From assembly GCA_017435905.1 (NCBI GenBank), contig JAFSEB010000063.1, positions 1 through 64,000 on the forward strand: a stretch of DNA of 64,000 nucleotides, read 5' to 3'. Both the position numbers and the translations under genes were made by a program. Below the pieces are notes generated by a model. The model was not told the DNA's origin. It was given only the letters and a program-made list of their open reading frames with translations, and did no database searches. Shown in pieces: positions 31,316-43,280 of the stretch; position 1 is the first letter of the stretch, and every line of letters begins with the position of its first letter. Source of the DNA: Clostridia bacterium (GTDB taxonomy: Bacteria; Bacillota; Clostridia; Christensenellales; CAG-138).

Positions 31316-31344
31316 TTGACACGCTTCGGCTGCGGCGTTATACT
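31316..31344 (+). promoter_or_regulatory. Strong sigma-A promoter of the leader peptide / ABC transporter operon
   Basis: A perfect TTGACA (31316-31321), a 17-nt spacer and TATACT (31339-31344) make this one of the best promoters in the window. It drives the leader frame at 31388. Confidence 0.85.
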
Positions 31345-31387
31345 ACAGAAAAATTGATCCGGCTGCCGGAAGAAAGGAGAAAACACC

Positions 31388-31504
31388 ATGTTCAATACTC
31401 GTGCAAATGTGCAGCATGTTTCGTTCAACTCCTTTTTCGGCTTTACCAAGGTCCGCTTTGCGGGCCGTTTGGTCGTGGAAAAAATGCCGGTTGATGCAGC
31501 ATAG
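31388..31504 (+). CDS. Phe-rich 38-codon leader peptide
   Basis: ATG 31388 follows AAAGGAG with 8-nt spacing and opens a 38-codon frame with six Phe, five of them within codons 13-24 (SFNSFFGFTKVRF). The sequence has no membrane segment or recognised domain. Placed between a strong promoter and a terminator, with a set of mutually exclusive stems overlapping its 3' half, it fits a transcription attenuation leader in which ribosome stalling at Phe codons relieves termination. It could alternatively be a small functional protein. Confidence 0.65.
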   Translation: MFNTRANVQHVSFNSFFGFTKVRFAGRLVVEKMPVDAA

Positions 31505-31560
31505 TCAGCATACATTTGCGTATTGCGGCTCTGCCTCTAAGGCAGGGCCGTTTTTATTTT
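31450..31560 (+). promoter_or_regulatory. Transcription attenuator (1:2, 2:3, 3:4 stems)
   Basis: Region 1 GGTCCGC (31450-31456) pairs with region 2 GCGGGCC (31460-31466) over a TTT loop. Region 2 extended (GCGGGCCG, 31460-31467) can instead pair with region 3 CGGCTCTGC (31526-31534) with one bulged T. Region 3 CGGCTCTGCC (31526-31535) pairs with region 4 GGCAGGGCCG (31541-31550) and T5ATTTT follows, an intrinsic terminator. A ribosome stalled at Phe codons 16-19 (31433-31444) would cover region 1, free region 2 and favour the antiterminator. Confidence 0.65.
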
Positions 31561-31576
31561 GTAAAACGCGTTTTAC
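31561..31576. repeat. Perfect 16-bp palindrome after the attenuator
   Basis: GTAAAACGCGTTTTAC is a perfect palindrome between the terminator T-tract and the ribosome binding site of the substrate-binding protein gene. It could be a repressor site or simply a second hairpin. Confidence 0.5.
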
Positions 31577-31619: not shown

Positions 31620-32585
31620 ATGAAAAAGGTACTTGCAATGATCCTTGCGGCAATGATGCTCGTTGCCATGACTGCCTGCGGCAATGCCGCCGGAAACGAA
31701 GCGGAAGACGGCACTTATTCCGTCGGTATCGTCCAGCTGATGGAGCATGTGGCTCTTGATAAGGCGACTCAGGGCTTCCGGGATGCGCTGACTGAGAAGC
31801 TTGGCGACAAGATCACCTTTGATGTACAGCTTGCAGGCGGCGAAGCCACCAACTGCACCCCCATCGTCACCAAGTTCATCAATGACGGCGTAGACCTCAT
31901 CATGGCCAACGCCACTCCCGCTGTCATCGCTGCAAAAGAAGCTACTTCCACCATCCCGATCGTCGGCACCTCTGTTACCGATTATGTTGCGGCGGAAGCT
32001 GCCATTGTAGAATCCAACGAAAAGCCCGGCGGCAACGTCACCGGCTATTCCGACCTCAGCGATATCGCTGCCCATGTGGAGCTGACCAAGAAGCTTTGCC
32101 CCGATGCAAAGACCGTTGCCATCCTTTACTGCTCCGCAGAGCCCAACTCCGTCATTCAGGGCAATCAGGCTGAAGAACTGTATGCTGCTGCCGGTCTTAC
32201 TACCGTTACTTTGACCGCCAGCGACATCACCACCCTTTCCGGCGTTGTGACCTCCGCCTGTGAGCAGGCCGATGTCATCTACATCCCCACCGATAACCTC
32301 TTCGCCGAAAACATGGAAGCTGTGAAGAACATCGCTGTTCCTGCCAAGGTGCCCGTGATCACCGGTGAAGGCGGCATGGTGGAGACCGGCGGCACCGCAT
32401 CCGTTGCCATCGATTACTACACCCTTGGCTACCGTGCAGGCGAAATGGCCTACTCCATCCTTGCAGAGGGCGCCGATCCTGCCACCACCCCCATCGGCTT
32501 CATGACCGCTGATGATATGGAACTTGTCATCAATCAGGAAAATGCGGACGCCATGGGTCTTGTGATCCCCGAAGATCTGCAGTAA
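31620..32585 (+). CDS. ABC transporter substrate-binding lipoprotein (TrpX / PF04392 type)
   Basis: The 321-residue lipoprotein has a signal peptide with lipobox MTAC and the two-lobed periplasmic-binding fold of the ABC_sub_bind family: VGIVQLMEHVALDKATQGFR, VDLIMANATPAVIAAKEATS, IPIVGTSVTDYVAA and NVTGYSD. The family includes TrpX of the streptococcal tryptophan transporter, but its members are often annotated without substrate. The Phe-rich leader upstream points to an aromatic amino acid. GAAGGAG precedes the ATG. Permease and ATPase genes follow. Confidence 0.85.
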   Translation: MKKVLAMILAAMMLVAMTACGNAAGNEAEDGTYSVGIVQLMEHVALDKATQGFRDALTEKLGDKITFDVQLAGGEATNCTPIVTKFINDGVDLIMANATPAVIAAKEATSTIPIVGTSVTDYVAAEAAIVESNEKPGGNVTGYSDLSDIAAHVELTKKLCPDAKTVAILYCSAEPNSVIQGNQAEELYAAAGLTTVTLTASDITTLSGVVTSACEQADVIYIPTDNLFAENMEAVKNIAVPAKVPVITGEGGMVETGGTASVAIDYYTLGYRAGEMAYSILAEGADPATTPIGFMTADDMELVINQENADAMGLVIPEDLQ

Positions 32586-32601
32586 GCAAAAACAGGATAC
32601 T

Positions 32602-32646
32602 TGATGCTGCCGCAGCAGGCGATCGCCTGCTGCGGCATACGCATCA
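32602..32646 (+). other. Large intercistronic hairpin
   Basis: TGCCGCAGCAGGCG at 32608 pairs with CGCCTGCTGCGGCA ending at 32637 in a 30-nt perfect palindrome, extended by TGATGC/GCATCA. No T-tract follows, so it is not a simple terminator. Between binding-protein and permease genes, such stems commonly protect the upstream mRNA so that more binding protein is made. Confidence 0.75.
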
Positions 32647-32706
32647 AAACGGAAAAAGCAAAACAAAGCAAATGCCGCACCGCTGCGGCAGAACGGAGAA
32701 GTTGTT

Positions 32707-33633
32707 ATGGATCTGATTTCCTCGATGCTGCGCATGATGCCCGATGCGGTGGCGCAGGGCCTCATTTGGGGCATTATGGCACTTGGCGTGTACATCACCT
32801 ACAAAGTGCTTGATTATTCCGACCTGACGGTGGACGGCTCCATCTGTACAGGCGGTGCGGTCGCCGCCCTTTTGATCCTCAACGGTGTGCCGATGGCCGT
32901 TGCCATCCTTGCCGCATTCGTTGCAGGTGCACTTGCAGGCCTCATCACGGCGCTGCTTCATACCAAAATGGGAATTCCGCCTATCCTTTCCGGCATTCTG
33001 ACGCAGCTTGCACTTTACTCCATTAACCTTCGCATCATGGGAAAAGCCATGCTGGCTGTAAGCGTTGACAAGTTTCCGCTTCTTGTCAGCGTGCGTGATC
33101 AGGGCGCATCCTGCCTTGTGGGCGCTGCTTTTGTGGTGGTGATCATTGCGCTTCTTTACTGGTTCTTCGGTACGGAGCTCGGCTGTGCCATCCGTGCAAC
33201 AGGCGCCAACCCCAACATGAGCCGTGCGCAGGGCATCAACGACAATACCATGAAACTCTTCGGCCTCGTGCTCGGAAACGGCCTTGTGGGCATCAGCGGT
33301 GCGCTGTATACCCAGTATCTTGGCAGCGTGACCGTCAACATGGGCCGCGGTGCCATCGTCATCGGCCTTGCGGCGGTGATCATCGGCGATGTGCTCTTCG
33401 GAAAGATCTTCCGCAATTTCTCCCTCAAGCTGTTGAGTGTTGTACTCGGTGCGATCATCTACTATATGGTCACGGCTTTTGTCATTCAGCTTGGTCTTAA
33501 TACCGATGACCTCAAGCTCTTCAGCGCAGCGTTTGTGACCGTTGCCCTCTTCCTGCCTTACTGGAAAGACAGACACCATAAAGAAAAACACCGCAAAAAA
33601 ATGATGCAGGAAGGAGGAAAAGCCGATGCTTAA
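32707..33633 (+). CDS. ABC transporter permease (TrpY type, BPD_transp_2)
   Basis: The 308-residue protein has about nine membrane segments, including GLIWGIMALGVYITYKVLDY at the start, which is typical of this branch with its DYSDLTVDGS motif. The cytoplasmic loop GTELGCAIRATGANPNMSRA is the conserved coupling segment of branched-chain amino acid and sugar type permeases. It would form the membrane channel with the ATPase whose gene overlaps its end by 8 nt. Confidence 0.88.
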   Translation: MDLISSMLRMMPDAVAQGLIWGIMALGVYITYKVLDYSDLTVDGSICTGGAVAALLILNGVPMAVAILAAFVAGALAGLITALLHTKMGIPPILSGILTQLALYSINLRIMGKAMLAVSVDKFPLLVSVRDQGASCLVGAAFVVVIIALLYWFFGTELGCAIRATGANPNMSRAQGINDNTMKLFGLVLGNGLVGISGALYTQYLGSVTVNMGRGAIVIGLAAVIIGDVLFGKIFRNFSLKLLSVVLGAIIYYMVTAFVIQLGLNTDDLKLFSAAFVTVALFLPYWKDRHHKEKHRKKMMQEGGKADA

Positions 33634-34420
33634 AGTCGAAAACATCCGCAAAACATTCAACCCGGGCACCATCAATGAGAAGACTGCCCTAAGCGGCGTT
33701 TCCTTCCATCTTCGTGAAGGCGAATCCGTTTCCGTTATCGGCGGCAACGGCGCCGGCAAGTCCACCCTCCTGAATGCGGTGGCGGGAACGCTTACCGTGG
33801 ATTCCGGCTCTGTCAATCTCGGCGGGCTCAATATCACCCATCTGCCGGAGCATAAGCGTGCCAAGTACATCGGCCGTGTATTTCAGGACCCCATGATGGG
33901 CACCGCTGCCACCATGCAGATCGAAGAAAACCTTGCCCTTGCGCTTCGCCGCGGGCAGCACAGGACCTTCCGTGCAGGCATCACCAAGGCGGAACGGGAC
34001 ATGTTCCGTGATATGCTCAAGATCCTTGACCTTGGCCTTGAAGACCGCCTTACCGCAAAGGTGGGTCTGCTTTCGGGCGGCCAGCGCCAGGCGCTGACGC
34101 TCCTGATGGCAAGCCTTGTTAAGCCGAAACTTCTCCTTCTTGACGAGCATACCGCAGCGCTCGACCCGAAAACCGCCGCAAAGGTCATGGAAGTGACCCG
34201 GCGCATCGTGAACCGTGACCAATTGACGACCCTGATGATCACCCATAACATGCGTGATGCCATTGAATACGGTGACAGGCTGTTCATGATGTATGAAGGC
34301 CGCATCGTGATCGATATCGCAGGCGAAGAAAAACAGAAGCTGACCGTGCCGGATCTTCTTGAACTGTTCAGCAAGGTGAGCGGCAGCACCGAAGCCAACG
34401 ATAAACTGCTCATGTCCTGA
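33626..34420 (+). CDS. ABC transporter ATP-binding protein (TrpZ type)
   Basis: The 264-residue ATPase has Walker A GGNGAGKST, Q-loop VFQDPMMG, signature LLSGGQRQAL, Walker B LLLLDEHTAALD and the H-loop in LMITHNM. It energises uptake by the permease encoded just upstream. The family usually has Glu or His after the Walker B Asp; here DEHTA keeps the catalytic Glu. AGGAGG lies upstream of ATG 33626, inside the permease gene. A terminator follows. Confidence 0.93.
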   Translation: MLKVENIRKTFNPGTINEKTALSGVSFHLREGESVSVIGGNGAGKSTLLNAVAGTLTVDSGSVNLGGLNITHLPEHKRAKYIGRVFQDPMMGTAATMQIEENLALALRRGQHRTFRAGITKAERDMFRDMLKILDLGLEDRLTAKVGLLSGGQRQALTLLMASLVKPKLLLLDEHTAALDPKTAAKVMEVTRRIVNRDQLTTLMITHNMRDAIEYGDRLFMMYEGRIVIDIAGEEKQKLTVPDLLELFSKVSGSTEANDKLLMS

Positions 34421-34470: not shown

Positions 34471-34941
34471 TCATGCGGTGGGGGAGGCGGCATCATAAAT
34501 GCTGTCGAACAGCGCTGTGATTTCGGCGGCAGCTTCGCTGTAGTTTTCGGGCCACTTCATGAAGCCCTTCGCCTTGATGCTGCTGCCGTTGTCCATGTAT
34601 ATTGTCAGGCGGAAAGACCTGCCGTCCATCGCACTTTTGCTTGCTTTGTCAAACCCGTTCCAGCGCCCCATTTCGTATTTTTCCGCAATGGCGTAAAGCT
34701 GTTCCATCAGGGCGGTATCCGTTGCCGCAGTGAGCGCATCTTCTTCCGCCATGCCGTCTTTTTGGATGGTGACGGTGGTAACGCCTGCTTCCGTAATAGC
34801 CTGATAGGAAAAACCGCTGTTCATCACGGAACCCGTTTCCGAAAAGGAAAAGGAAGTAAAGGGAGCAAGCTCAGTATTCTTGCAGCCGCTTATCAGGAAC
34901 AGGGCGGAAATACAAAGTGCCAGAGATAGAAATTTTGTCAT
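34471..34941 (-). CDS. Small lipoprotein, function unknown
   Basis: The 156-residue protein has a lipoprotein signal peptide with lipobox ISGC. The mature part contains TSFSFSETGSVMNSGFSYQA, YEMGRWNGFDKASKSAMDGR and FMKWPENYSEAAAEITALFD. The pattern (strand-rich centre, a GWNGFDKS-like turn, a P-x-N motif) recalls small Clostridial lipoproteins of unknown role. AAAGGAG precedes the ATG. It is divergent from the MerR-type gene and could be its neighbour target. Confidence 0.7.
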   Translation of the reverse strand: MTKFLSLALCISALFLISGCKNTELAPFTSFSFSETGSVMNSGFSYQAITEAGVTTVTIQKDGMAEEDALTAATDTALMEQLYAIAEKYEMGRWNGFDKASKSAMDGRSFRLTIYMDNGSSIKAKGFMKWPENYSEAAAEITALFDSIYDAASPTA

Positions 34942-35120
34942 AGCGGCTTCTCCTTTATATCGGTATGATATGGAACAGCCGGTGCTGTCAGGCTGTCCTT
35001 TACAGTATCATAGCATACGGGAATGAGAATGAAAACACCGGAATCGGACGACCCTGTATGCAAAAAGGGTGAAAAATGCGGTAAAATAAGATCATAGAAA
35101 AAATCCCCCTGCGTCAGGGG

Positions 35121-35151
35121 TTGCTCGTGACGCTGCGTGATGTTGTATGCT
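35121..35151 (+). promoter_or_regulatory. MerR-type promoter with 19-bp spacer
   Basis: TTGCTC (35121-35126) and TATGCT (35146-35151) are separated by 19 nt, the lengthened spacing typical of promoters remodelled by MerR proteins. The spacer contains a small dyad ACGC-T-GCGT. This suggests autoregulation by the gene at 35175. Confidence 0.55.
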
Positions 35152-35174
35152 GACACCGTAAGGAGGTGAAAACC

Positions 35175-35894
35175 ATGTCCCATTACACGACAGGAGAGAT
35201 CGCAAAGCTTTGCGGTGTCACGGTACGCACCGTGCAGTACTATGATACACGTTTGCTGCTCATCCCCAGCGAGCTGACGGAAGGCGGAAGGCGTCTTTAT
35301 ACGGAAGAAGATGTAAAGAGGCTCAGGACCATCTGCTTCCTGCGGGAAGCAGGGCTGTCCATCAATACCATTTCTTCTCTTTTGCAGGAGGAAGATCCGG
35401 GCAGCGTGATCGGCATACTGATCGACCGGCAAAAGGTACAGCTGCAGCATGAGATCAGCGAAAAGGAAGGGCAGCTTGCACGGCTCGATGCACTGGAACA
35501 GGCGGTGAAAGCAACTGTGAATTTCTCCGTTGAAACCATTGGGGATATGGTGCACGTTATGGCAGACAAAAAGAAAATGAATCGGTTTTATATGAAACTT
35601 GTTGTGATCGCCCTTCCGCTTGAACTTGCGGAGATCGCGGCGCTCATCGCCGCAATCAAAACGGGTCATTGGTGGATCTTTGCGATTTGGTTTGCTTTGA
35701 TGATCCCCATAACGGCGCTGTTCGTCCGTTACTATTACAGGCGTGTGAAGTACATCTGTGCGCAATGTCATGAAACCTTCCGCCCGTCATATAAGGAGTT
35801 TTTCTTTGCGAACCATACCCTGCGCACCCGCAAACTCACCTGCACCTGCTGCGGTCACAAAGGCTTTGCGGTGGAAACGCTGAGTGAGGAGTAA
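35175..35894 (+). CDS. MerR-type regulator fused to membrane hairpin and zinc ribbon
   Basis: Residues 1-75 are a MerR DNA-binding domain (TTGEIAKLCGVTVRTVQYYD, GGRRLYTEEDVKRLRTICFL). A coiled-coil region follows, then two membrane segments (FYMKLVVIALPLELAEIAAL, WWIFAIWFALMIPITALFV) and a C-terminal zinc ribbon with CAQCHETF and CTCCGHKG. Soluble MerR proteins lack the last two parts, so this 239-residue protein is probably a membrane-bound regulator. AGGAGGTG lies 6 nt before ATG 35175. The nearby target is probably its own promoter. Confidence 0.8.
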   Translation: MSHYTTGEIAKLCGVTVRTVQYYDTRLLLIPSELTEGGRRLYTEEDVKRLRTICFLREAGLSINTISSLLQEEDPGSVIGILIDRQKVQLQHEISEKEGQLARLDALEQAVKATVNFSVETIGDMVHVMADKKKMNRFYMKLVVIALPLELAEIAALIAAIKTGHWWIFAIWFALMIPITALFVRYYYRRVKYICAQCHETFRPSYKEFFFANHTLRTRKLTCTCCGHKGFAVETLSEE

Positions 35895-35955: not shown

Positions 35956-36069
35956 CGTTCATAACGCCGGACGTATTTCGTTTCAGGAATAATCGCCTTT
36001 GGTGAGCGCTTTAGAGTTGTTTTCGAGCGCATCCACCCACCGGCTGCCCCTTTTGTCATGGCTCTTTTT

Positions 36070-36702
36070 TTACTTTTGAATTTTGATCAAAAGCAGCTTT
36101 CCCTGTTTGACCGATACGGTCGCCGTTTCACCGGGCAGCACTTCGTTGCTTATGCCGTACTGATACTCACAGGTGATCTCGCCGTCATGAAGCGGATACT
36201 TTGCGCCGGTAACGGTGATGCCTTTTGCACAGCCTGTGATGTTCAGAAGCGAAAAGAACGCATACCGGTCACAGATGGATACGGGTTTATCCGATACGAT
36301 CTCCATTTCGGAATAGTCGTCTGTGATGCTGCCTTTCTTACCAAGGGAGTCGAGGTACAGAAGGATCGACACATTGCCGAGGGTATGGTCAAGCCTTGCC
36401 CCGACAACGCCGATCAAAAGAAAAGTATCAAACCCTCTTTTAACGGCTTCCTTGACGGCAAAGACGGTGTCGGTATCATCCTTTTCACAGGGGAGCACGA
36501 TGGTCTCCACATCAAGGTGCGGATTTTCGTGGGAATCGAAATCACCGACGATCAACCCCGGCTTCACTTGCAGCCGACCCAAATGCTTCAGACCGCTGTC
36601 GCAGAAAACCACATAGTCATCCGCACACAGCTTTTCACGGATGAAATCATAATTGTTGATGTCCGCACCGCCCACGATGACACAGCGTTTCATTTTCCTC
36701 AT
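36070..36702 (-). CDS. thiN: Thiamine diphosphokinase ThiN
   Basis: The 210-residue enzyme transfers pyrophosphate from ATP to thiamine, giving thiamine diphosphate. Motifs typical of the family are CVIVGGADINNYDFI, FCDSGLKHLG, LIVGDFDSHENPH, DDTDTVFAVKEA and GVVGARLDHTLGNV. ATG 36702 has AGGA 6 nt upstream and lies one base after the cytX gene, so it is the last gene of the thiamine operon. Confidence 0.93.
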   Translation of the reverse strand: MRKMKRCVIVGGADINNYDFIREKLCADDYVVFCDSGLKHLGRLQVKPGLIVGDFDSHENPHLDVETIVLPCEKDDTDTVFAVKEAVKRGFDTFLLIGVVGARLDHTLGNVSILLYLDSLGKKGSITDDYSEMEIVSDKPVSICDRYAFFSLLNITGCAKGITVTGAKYPLHDGEITCEYQYGISNEVLPGETATVSVKQGKLLLIKIQK

Positions 36703-36703
36703 C

Positions 36704-37876
36704 TCATTTCCTGTCTTTTCTTTTTATTTTGCTGACTGCAGCACACAGTGCGATCGTAATAAGCATATCGGGCAGGGTGTTTCCGACGACGATATCCACC
36801 TGCATCAGCAGCCTGTAAACCACAAAACCCACAAGCCAGATCATCAGGTTGCACATGTTGAAGGCACTTGCTTCCGTATTCTGCTTCAGAATAAAGAAGT
36901 CAGCGATCTCTATGGCGATCATCGGTGCGAACACAGATCCGATAAAATACAGGAAATCCGTAATATCGGCGAGGGGCAGAAAGATCGCACCGACCGTACC
37001 GATCACTGTCACGGCAACGGCGACCCACTTTCCGTTGATCTTGACTGACAGCGATTCGCTGGAAATACCGGCGGAATATGCATCAAGGAAAGTCGTTGTA
37101 ACGGTAGAGAATATCACGGTCAGAAGTCCCGCAATGCCAAGTCCGGCTTTTACCATGATCCGGGCAATATCGGATTCGCCGGTAAAGATGGCAGCACCCA
37201 TACCGATCATATACATCCAGCAGCTGACCAAGCCGTATGTAAGAGCGCTGACCGCCGTCGCCTTGACGGGCTTTTTGGCTTCTCTGGTATAGTCGCTGAT
37301 CAGCGGCAGCCAGGAAAGGGGCATGGCAACGGAAAGCTCCACAGCGGCGCCGAATGTCATGCCATCACCGCCGGTATGCAAGGCACTGCCGTTGCCGAAG
37401 ATCACAAAACTGAGGATGACCGTCAGGACAAACAAAGCGCCCATTGCAGCGGTGTTGACTTTGCCGAGGTTCCTGATGCCGATCAGGATCCAAAGGATGA
37501 TGAGCGCACCGATCACGACGCACCAGATCCAGCTGCCGATATCCAAAATACCGTTGACTGCCAAAGCACCGTCATAGATCATGATGCCGGTCCAGCCGAC
37601 AAGCTGAATGATGTTCAGCAAGGAGAAAAGCATAGCTCCCTTGCTGCCGAAGCTCATCTTTGCTGTTTCCATTGCGCTTTTGCTCACCTTGCCGCCGATC
37701 AGACCGGCAAGGAAAAGCATCGCACAACCGATGATGTGACCGATCAATATTGCAAGCAAGCCCTTTGAAAAGCCGAGAGGGGCAAAATATGTGCCGGTCA
37801 GGATCTCGGCGATGGAGACAGCGGCGCCAAACCAAATCAAGCCGTTTTCAAATACAGAGGTGCGTTTTTCTTCCAT
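36704..37876 (-). CDS. cytX: Hydroxymethylpyrimidine transporter CytX
   Basis: The 390-residue nucleobase-cation-symport-1 permease has about eleven or twelve membrane segments. Key parts are GLIWFGAAVSIAEILTGTYF, a family start, MPLSWLPLISDYTREAKKPV, and TTTFLDAYSAGIS. CytX proteins are found in thiamine operons under TPP riboswitches and are thought to import HMP. AAAGGAGG precedes ATG 37876. The gene starts one base after the thiD stop. Confidence 0.9.
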   Translation of the reverse strand: MEEKRTSVFENGLIWFGAAVSIAEILTGTYFAPLGFSKGLLAILIGHIIGCAMLFLAGLIGGKVSKSAMETAKMSFGSKGAMLFSLLNIIQLVGWTGIMIYDGALAVNGILDIGSWIWCVVIGALIILWILIGIRNLGKVNTAAMGALFVLTVILSFVIFGNGSALHTGGDGMTFGAAVELSVAMPLSWLPLISDYTREAKKPVKATAVSALTYGLVSCWMYMIGMGAAIFTGESDIARIMVKAGLGIAGLLTVIFSTVTTTFLDAYSAGISSESLSVKINGKWVAVAVTVIGTVGAIFLPLADITDFLYFIGSVFAPMIAIEIADFFILKQNTEASAFNMCNLMIWLVGFVVYRLLMQVDIVVGNTLPDMLITIALCAAVSKIKRKDRK

Positions 37877-37877
37877 T

Positions 37878-38690
37878 TTACCGTACCTCCTTTGCGTATT
37901 CACCCTGCAGGTCAAAAGCATGATACATCGGACCGGAACCCTTCCCCAAATCGAGCATTGCCGCCAAAGCGCCGGAGATATAGCTCTTTGCTCTCCGAAC
38001 AGATTCGGCGAGAGAAAAACCCTTGGCAAGATTGGCTGCGATGGCACTTGAAAGCGTACAGCCTGTGCCATGGGTGTTGGGATTGTCAATGCGCTTGCCC
38101 TCAAACCAAACCGGTTCTCCGTTTGCGTAAAGAAGGTCGTTTGCATCGTTGACGCTGTGACCGCCCTTGAGCAAAACGGCACAATGATAGCTGTCTCCGA
38201 TCTGCTTTGCAGCGGCGATCATATCCTCTTTCGTTTCAATGGGCATACCGGAGAGGATCTGCGCTTCCGGAATGTTTGGCGTCACAAGGGTTGCAAGGGG
38301 CAGCAATTCTTCGATAAGGGTCTGTACTGCGCCGTTTTTCATCAGCGCTGAACCGCTTGTTGCCACCATCACGGGGTCAATGACCACATTCTTTGCACCG
38401 TAGAAGCGGAGCCTCTCTGCGATCACACGGATCAGCTCGCAGGATGCTGCCATACCGATTTTGACGGCATCGGGATCAATGTCCTCGAATACCGCATCGA
38501 TCTGTTGCTTCAAAAAATCCGGTGTTGATTCCTGAATTGCTCTTACGCCGGTCGTGTTCTGTGCCGTCAGCGCTGTCACTGCGCTCATGGCATAAACACC
38601 ATTCATGGTCATTGTTTTCAAATCTGCCTGAATGCCGGCGCCTCCACTGCAGTCGCTTCCTGCAATGGTCAATGCTGTTTTCTTTTTCAT
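37878..38690 (-). CDS. thiD: Hydroxymethylpyrimidine / phosphomethylpyrimidine kinase ThiD
   Basis: The 270-residue ribokinase-family enzyme phosphorylates HMP twice to HMP-PP. It shows TIAGSDCSGGAGIQADLKTM, DPVMVATSGSALM, TPNIPEAQILSGM and the anion-hole segment NTHGTGCTLSSAIAANLA with its catalytic Asp/Gly-rich loop. AAAGGAG lies 7 nt before ATG 38690. With CytX it forms a module for uptake and activation of HMP. Confidence 0.95.
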   Translation of the reverse strand: MKKKTALTIAGSDCSGGAGIQADLKTMTMNGVYAMSAVTALTAQNTTGVRAIQESTPDFLKQQIDAVFEDIDPDAVKIGMAASCELIRVIAERLRFYGAKNVVIDPVMVATSGSALMKNGAVQTLIEELLPLATLVTPNIPEAQILSGMPIETKEDMIAAAKQIGDSYHCAVLLKGGHSVNDANDLLYANGEPVWFEGKRIDNPNTHGTGCTLSSAIAANLAKGFSLAESVRRAKSYISGALAAMLDLGKGSGPMYHAFDLQGEYAKEVR

Positions 38691-42975: not shown

Positions 42976-43013
42976 ATAAAAAACGGGAAATCTTCGATTT
43001 GGAAGATTCCCGT
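42976..43013 (-). terminator. Expression-platform terminator of TPP riboswitch B
   Basis: On the minus strand CGGGAATCTTC pairs with GAAGATTTCCCG over a short loop and is followed by TTTTTTATTT, just before the thiS ribosome site. Confidence 0.85.
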
Positions 43014-43026
43014 GATGTTCACAAAA

Positions 43027-43108
43027 GTCCCTACGTTGGCATTATCCAAATCAGGTATATGGGTCGAAGGTCACACCTTCCTCTCAGCCTGCAAACACAA
43101 GCTCCCCG
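43027..43108 (-). ncRNA. TPP riboswitch B (proximal to thiS)
   Basis: On the minus strand the element reads GGGGAGC, then GGCTGAGAGGAAGG, GACCCATATACCTGATTTGG and ATAATGCCAACGTAGGGA, matching the THI-box consensus (CTGAGA, ACCTGAT--GGATAATGCC, GTAGGGA). It binds thiamine diphosphate and controls the terminator at 42976-43013. Confidence 0.95.
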
Positions 43109-43122
43109 CATATGAAATTGTG

Positions 43123-43160: not shown

Positions 43161-43177
43161 AAAAAATCCGAAAAGAT

Positions 43178-43263
43178 GACTTCCTACGGCGGCATTATCC
43201 GCATCAGGTTATAGGGTCGAAGTTTGGTTACTTCCTCTCAGCCTGCAAACACAAGCTCCCCTG
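43178..43263 (-). ncRNA. TPP riboswitch A (distal, first transcribed)
   Basis: On the minus strand it reads GGGGAGC, GGCTGAGAGGAAG, GACCCTATAACCTGATGCGG and ATAATGCCGCCGTAGGAA. It is nearly identical to riboswitch B in the first arm (GAGCTTGTGTTTGCAGGCTG in both) and differs in the P3 and P4 arms. Confidence 0.95.
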
Positions 43264-43280
43264 TATTTCTTTCGCTTAAC

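Follow-up and report, generated by a model that had tools for sequence, protein, structure and literature searches.

The window, i.e. the whole stretch of 64,000 nt that was analysed (genome G000), carries on its forward strand, in this order, a promoter, a ribosome-binding site, a short leader ORF, a terminator and a three-gene ABC importer operon. The promoter is of the sigma-70 type (TTGACA-N17-TATACT, positions 31316-31344) and was called perfect in the original prediction; as 11 of its 12 consensus positions are matched, near-perfect is the better description. The ribosome-binding site AAAGGAG (31373-31379) precedes a leader ORF of 38 codons (31388-31504) that encodes MFNTRANVQHVSFNSFFGFTKVRFAGRLVVEKMPVDAA* and has a homologue at another locus, L039; this ribosome site and the conservation of the frame suggest that the ORF is translated. 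Phe codons occupy positions 2, 13, 16, 17, 19 and 24, so the five that had been announced between codons 13 and 24 are all there, along with Phe2. At the Phe frequency of the window, five or more Phe in 12 residues have a probability of about 3e-5 for one preset stretch. The putative control codons Phe16, Phe17, Gly18 and Phe19 (TTT TTC GGC TTT, 31433-31444) are the same codons in L039.

Downstream of these codons, the RNA can adopt mutually exclusive pairings. The control-codon strand CGGCUUU can pair with a downstream AAA(AU)GCCG to give an outer pause (1:2) structure (31438-31489), although a different pairing of this strand is preferred in the minimum-energy fold of the window sequence. 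The inner pause hairpin GGUCCGC-UUU-GCGGGCC (31450-31466) shares every one of its 14 stem bases with L039 and coincides with the stem predicted between GGTCCGC (31450-31456) and GCGGGCC (31460-31466). In the folding model, GCGGGCCG (31460-31467) pairs with CGGCUCUGC (31526-31534) as an antiterminator of eight pairs with one bulge, exactly as had been proposed for GCGGGCCG and CGGCTCTGC at those positions. The intrinsic terminator, expected at 31526-31560, was found as a 12-pair stem (31525-31551) followed by a T-rich tail (31525-31560 overall); three terminator-like sites were obtained in the scan against 0.6 expected. The fold of the RNA from 31388 to 31576 reached -68.3 kcal/mol (z = -4.8), a value matched by none of 200 shuffles. 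No Rfam 15 family, amino-acid leaders included, gave a gathering-score match at the leader, the matches within the window being limited to TPP (two) and tRNA (one), and the T-box model RF00230 gave no covariance-model match upstream of the importer operon in the window.

The operon itself (31620-34420) encodes a binding protein of the ABC_sub_bind family (31620-32585; PF04392, E 7e-63; PDB relatives 6hni, 3lft and 3lkv), a permease of the BPD_transp_2 family (32707-33633; PF02653, E 4e-29) and an ATPase (33626-34420; PF00005, E 4e-27) whose gene overlaps that of the permease by 8 nt, all on the plus strand. By sequence comparison, the importer is a relative of the TrpX type, with a score of 231.8 bits against the TrpX model NF041285 that falls short of the curated cut-off of 390 required for TrpX identity. 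The closest solved relative of the binding protein is 6hni (CD0873; E 1e-49), and the ligands of the solved relatives are Tyr for CD0873 (6HNI), Phe for VC_1101 and Trp for SP1069 (PMC6816091). Loss of a related Clostridioides difficile importer was associated with lower uptake of both Tyr and Phe (PMC5951980). Near the importer, three ORFs (34471-34941 and 34938-35771 on the minus strand, 36058-36735 on the plus strand) matched nothing in Pfam at a cut-off as loose as E 0.1, and some of them may not be genes. Elsewhere in the window, the minus strand carries a CytX-type hydroxymethylpyrimidine transporter gene (36704-38182) and two tandem TPP riboswitch aptamers (43011-43118 and 43164-43272).

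To model the choice between the alternative pairings, a ribosome was placed with a chosen codon in its A site, the RNA beneath it was taken out and the remainder was folded up to position 31541, short of the terminator's 3' arm. With Phe19 in the A site, all footprints of 13-18 nt gave the antiterminator as the minimum-energy fold; with Phe17 it appeared at the 18-nt footprint only, and with codon 13, 16 or 24 it never formed. A stall anywhere in Phe codons 16-19 had been proposed to allow the antiterminator; this holds in the model for Phe19, and for Phe17 at the longest footprint, but not for Phe16, so that within the proposed stretch there is a single decisive codon, Phe19, as far as the model goes. 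The antiterminator appeared only when GGUCCGC lay under the ribosome, and without a ribosome the pause structure and the terminator coexisted. When the complete terminator was present, it was always more stable than the antiterminator, which must therefore win kinetically, as it does in classical attenuators.

A scan of GTDB species genomes with the binding protein yielded seven near orthologues, with 76-89% identity in the matched segments. The sister operon L039 is preceded by a homologous leader, MQNYNINNVYANINSFFGFMKVRYAGHVVIHKVG*, whose codons 1-33 can be aligned gap-free with those of the window leader, and by a promoter at the equivalent place (TTGACT-N17-TATACT). Codons 14-19, 21-23 and 25-26 are identical in both leaders (11 of 11), Phe16, Phe17 and Phe19 among them, against an operon background in which 55% of identical amino acids use the same codon and 52% of third positions are identical; the rest of the leader has mostly diverged. 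The inner hairpin, outer pause and terminator pairs are all kept in L039 and none is broken, with four consistent one-sided changes, three of them in the terminator and one from G-C to G-U in the outer pause. The L039 antiterminator is shorter (GGGCC/GGCCC, five continuous pairs), and in the model a stall at Phe19 likewise frees it. Both leaders fold with z of about -5. The suggested search of related genomes thus uncovered the same leader, with Phe codons and stems preserved, in front of one further importer operon.

L039 comes from G127, evidently the same genome as G238, which falls into a different family within the order; the importer operon has therefore probably moved between lineages. 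A search with the leader peptide found no second copy in 103 genomes of the window's family, and a covariance model of the leader, R1, run against a sample of the order plus the family of G238, matched only the window genome and G238/L039. The exact leader type is thus known from two sequences, whose own pair changes are few and all one-sided, and its breadth was then sought through orthologues of the importer, since these leader and R1 searches had given few matches.

In the close orthologues L036, L037 and L040, whose binding proteins are 79-80% identical, the place of the leader is taken by a T-box whose specifier aligns to UUC, a Phe codon (GAA-G-UUC-A). As a T-box reads the identity of its tRNA through an explicit codon, an unrelated device agrees on phenylalanine. 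In the binding-protein tree, the window and L039 are joined with a support of 96 and L036, L037 and L040 form a clade with a support of 99, both within one group. Further orthologues carry T-boxes with UUC (L043, L062, L066, L079, L108, L004, L022 and L008) or with the Tyr codon UAC (L045, L089, L083 and L007), some of these specifiers having been read by pattern instead of by model. A T-box label given to L041 by a regular expression was wrong, as none was present in its upstream sequence or in the Rfam scan. Mapped on the tree, the leader label changes eight times, of which at least six changes are forced by well-supported branches, by a quick method and with the tree still carrying the wrong label of L041. 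For two other near orthologues, L035 and L038 (78-80%), neither leader nor T-box was found upstream of the binding protein; they may be controlled by a promoter lying further upstream, because other coding sequence is found a short distance ahead of them. At L010 and L011, from same-genus genomes (G004 and G003), GAA-UUC-A followed by GAA-UAC-A upstream of the binding protein suggests that a Phe T-box and a Tyr T-box stand in tandem ahead of a single importer; only one T-box per locus reached the Rfam threshold.

Leader ORFs rich in aromatic residues turned out to be widespread upstream of this importer. Within the family of the window, the orthologues L002, L003 and L006, which lack a T-box, have a Phe/Tyr-rich leader ORF and a terminator, and in another family of the order, f4, a Phe-rich leader was found at 27 of the 30 orthologue loci fetched. 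The Phe codons of the f4 leaders lie 3' of a hairpin, and an antiterminator forms between CCC[A/G]UCUG and CGGAUGGG of the terminator. Across the 27 sequences, the hairpin and antiterminator were 89.5% paired and had nine pairs in which both partners had changed, while pairing in the terminator reached 97%, with five such pairs; none of 500 shuffles reached these values in either case. Examples of covarying antiterminators are CCCAUUUG/CGAAUGGG in L156 and CCGUCUG/UGGACGG in L177. Overall, a Phe/Tyr/Trp-rich ORF with a ribosome site and a terminator was present in 32 of 141 importer upstream regions, most of them related and hence not independent, compared to 4 of 1500 random segments of 420 nt. 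The statement in the original prediction that no such leader was known for this transporter family therefore has to be revised, such leaders being common in this bacterial order.

A model built from the 27 f4 leaders, R2, had no match at E <= 0.01 in the window genome, and common descent of the f4 and window leaders is therefore not claimed; the two nevertheless appear to work alike. Weak R2 matches were left out of account; at L218 (E 4e-10), the inspection covered the ORFs.

The window genome also encodes prephenate dehydratase (pheA), so the organism is probably not a Phe auxotroph. This gene, for a chorismate mutase/prephenate dehydratase (locus L183, G000:C75), has upstream of it a promoter, a leader encoding MHLQRGEKMNVFAFTAKFFAGFFAAYFFCFNRLSHGPDRVVLA* (L183 1010-1141, in reverse-complement coordinates) and a terminator, and a similar leader precedes the pheA copy at L213, from the same genus. 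At most other pheA loci of the window's family no Phe-rich leader was seen, and such a leader is therefore no general feature of pheA. About ten T-boxes lie elsewhere in the window genome, and leader peptides and T-boxes thus coexist in it. A simple specifier pattern yielded no dependable specifier for these T-boxes or for those of G238. Genome G346 has a DAHP synthase gene (PF00793) that is preceded by an f4-type leader rich in Phe and Trp, AARFFSALRVFFFGWWSW (L228:1428-1589, plus strand).

Taken as a whole, the locus combines what characterizes attenuators of the pheL/trpL kind: a promoter with a short ORF, clustered cognate codons, exclusive stems (by the folding model) in register with a stall, and cognate downstream genes. 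Together with the L039 leader, the Phe T-boxes, the other Phe-rich leaders and the pheA leader, this makes it very probable that a ribosome-mediated attenuator of that kind renders a phenylalanine importer inducible by a shortage of charged Phe-tRNA. According to the mechanism proposed, the leader RNA would be made from the promoter at 31316-31344. With plentiful Phe-tRNA, the ribosome would pass codons 16-24 without stalling, the control-codon strand and GGUCCGC would re-pair with the downstream strand, locking up GCGGGCC, and the terminator (31525-31560) would stop transcription. Under a shortage of Phe-tRNA, a ribosome stalled with Phe19 in its A site would cover GGUCCGC, the freed GCGGGCCG would pair with CGGCUCUGC, which forms the terminator's 5' arm, and RNA polymerase would continue into the importer genes. 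That transcripts end or are extended in cells in this way, in response to Phe-tRNA charging, is predicted from the model. A feature that counts against the attenuator reading is that the leader stop codon lies 3' of the 1:2 hairpin, unlike in trpL and pheL, which makes the behaviour of a terminating ribosome less clear. As for the substrate, uptake of phenylalanine or related aromatic compounds, as originally suggested, gains support from the Phe T-boxes on close orthologues, the Phe-rich orthologue leaders, the pheA leader and the Tyr-, Phe- and Trp-binding relatives, and we infer that the importer transports Phe; phenylalanine is thus a likely substrate for an importer branch otherwise named after tryptophan.

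The conservation of residues 14-19, 21-23 and 25-26 in two leaders whose N-termini have diverged would also be expected if the nascent peptide itself, NSFFGFxKVR[FY]AG, arrested the ribosome on free phenylalanine or another ligand in the manner of TnaC, with the RNA switch following. However, conservation extends to synonymous positions, and codons 17-19 and 21-26 are part of RNA stems, so that RNA pairing explains much of this conservation, and the leaders elsewhere in the family share aromatic richness and stems while their peptides differ widely. In addition, close orthologues use a Phe T-box, a sensor of tRNA charging and not of free Phe, and a free ligand would turn expression on, the reverse of what one would expect for an importer; such an arrest seems to us quite unlikely. 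A general sensing of aromatic residues, with Phe and Tyr both monitored and both carried by the importer, is unlikely as well, although it draws on the Tyr at codons 4, 10 and 24 of the L039 leader, on orthologues with UAC specifiers or mixed Phe/Tyr leaders (L002 and L003) and on the C. difficile association with Tyr and Phe uptake (PMC5951980): the window leader has neither Tyr nor Trp codons, and its productive stall register holds only Phe codons.

Resistance genes also employ short leader ORFs with stalling-dependent antitermination (for example, PMC10314930), but control of the present operon by antibiotic-induced stalling is very improbable, as the downstream genes encode an importer with a binding protein, neither an exporter nor an ABC-F protein, and in close orthologues the place of the leader is taken by Phe T-boxes. 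That a Phe-rich ORF came to lie by chance before the ordinary terminator of an unrelated short transcript is hardly credible: such frames do arise in the control segments (4 of 1500), but the 32 qualifying regions among 141, the conservation in L039 and the z of about -5 in both leaders all speak against it. A wider reading, towards which the data lean without great assurance, is that the Phe regulon (importer, pheA and, in some genomes, DAHP synthase) is run by fast-diverging Phe leader attenuators that have repeatedly been exchanged with Phe/Tyr T-boxes, the sensed signal, Phe-tRNA charging, remaining unchanged, in an order of mostly uncultured gut Clostridia.

Leader-peptide attenuation has long been ascribed to Proteobacteria and Actinobacteria, and its classical form would here extend to a large, mostly uncultured lineage of Clostridia in which T-boxes also operate. 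With the proteobacterial pheL-pheA and trpL systems, the window leader has in common a promoter, a short ORF of cognate codons, exclusive pause, antiterminator and terminator structures and a downstream gene for the same amino acid; it differs in being longer (38 codons), in spanning the whole 1:2 hairpin and stopping after it, in its importer target and Clostridia-type host and in having no Rfam match. In bacilli, His leader peptides before hisS/hisZ replace T-boxes (Naville and Gautheret, 2010; PMC2965389), likewise a leader-peptide attenuator of Firmicutes at the site of a T-box in relatives, but for His and synthetase-type genes, whereas in the window system the amino acid is Phe, the target is an ABC importer and the operons between which the swap is seen have binding proteins with about 80% identity. 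The candidate uORFC-13-1 motif proposed before aroF in Acholeplasma (PMC8632094) is likewise non-proteobacterial and combines a Phe-codon uORF with a terminator upstream of a gene for aromatic amino acids, although RNA, host group and gene are all different. The TrpXYZ importer of Streptococcus suis (PMC9382623) belongs to the same importer family and is also subject to tRNA-responsive transcription attenuation, but through a Trp T-box instead of a Phe leader peptide, and the window protein scores below the TrpX cut-off (231.8 vs. 390). CD0873 (PMC6816091) and the Tyr/Phe importer (PMC5951980) share the aromatic amino acid importer family, and the available parts of both sources report no leader attenuator.

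In a literature search that took in a minority of subscription journals, no description of a Phe leader upstream of this importer was found; relative to the literature searched, the association with these genes, how widespread it is and the clean swap between Phe T-box and Phe leader appear to be new. Operons about 80% alike in their binding protein, in which the same tRNA is sensed by two unrelated RNA devices, offer a natural comparison, and the pair of T-box and leader makes attenuator replacement a testable question.

In Enterococcus, a Phe/Tyr-rich leader ORF (QLNNFYFSYFR*) was found at seven of eight importer loci, with a terminator in the leader region. At L097:3665-3858 and L085:3788-3963, the importer's leader region coincides in part with a match to the Rfam family RF02863 ('Enterococcus sRNA 2410'), which may be a 5' leader attenuator instead of an sRNA.
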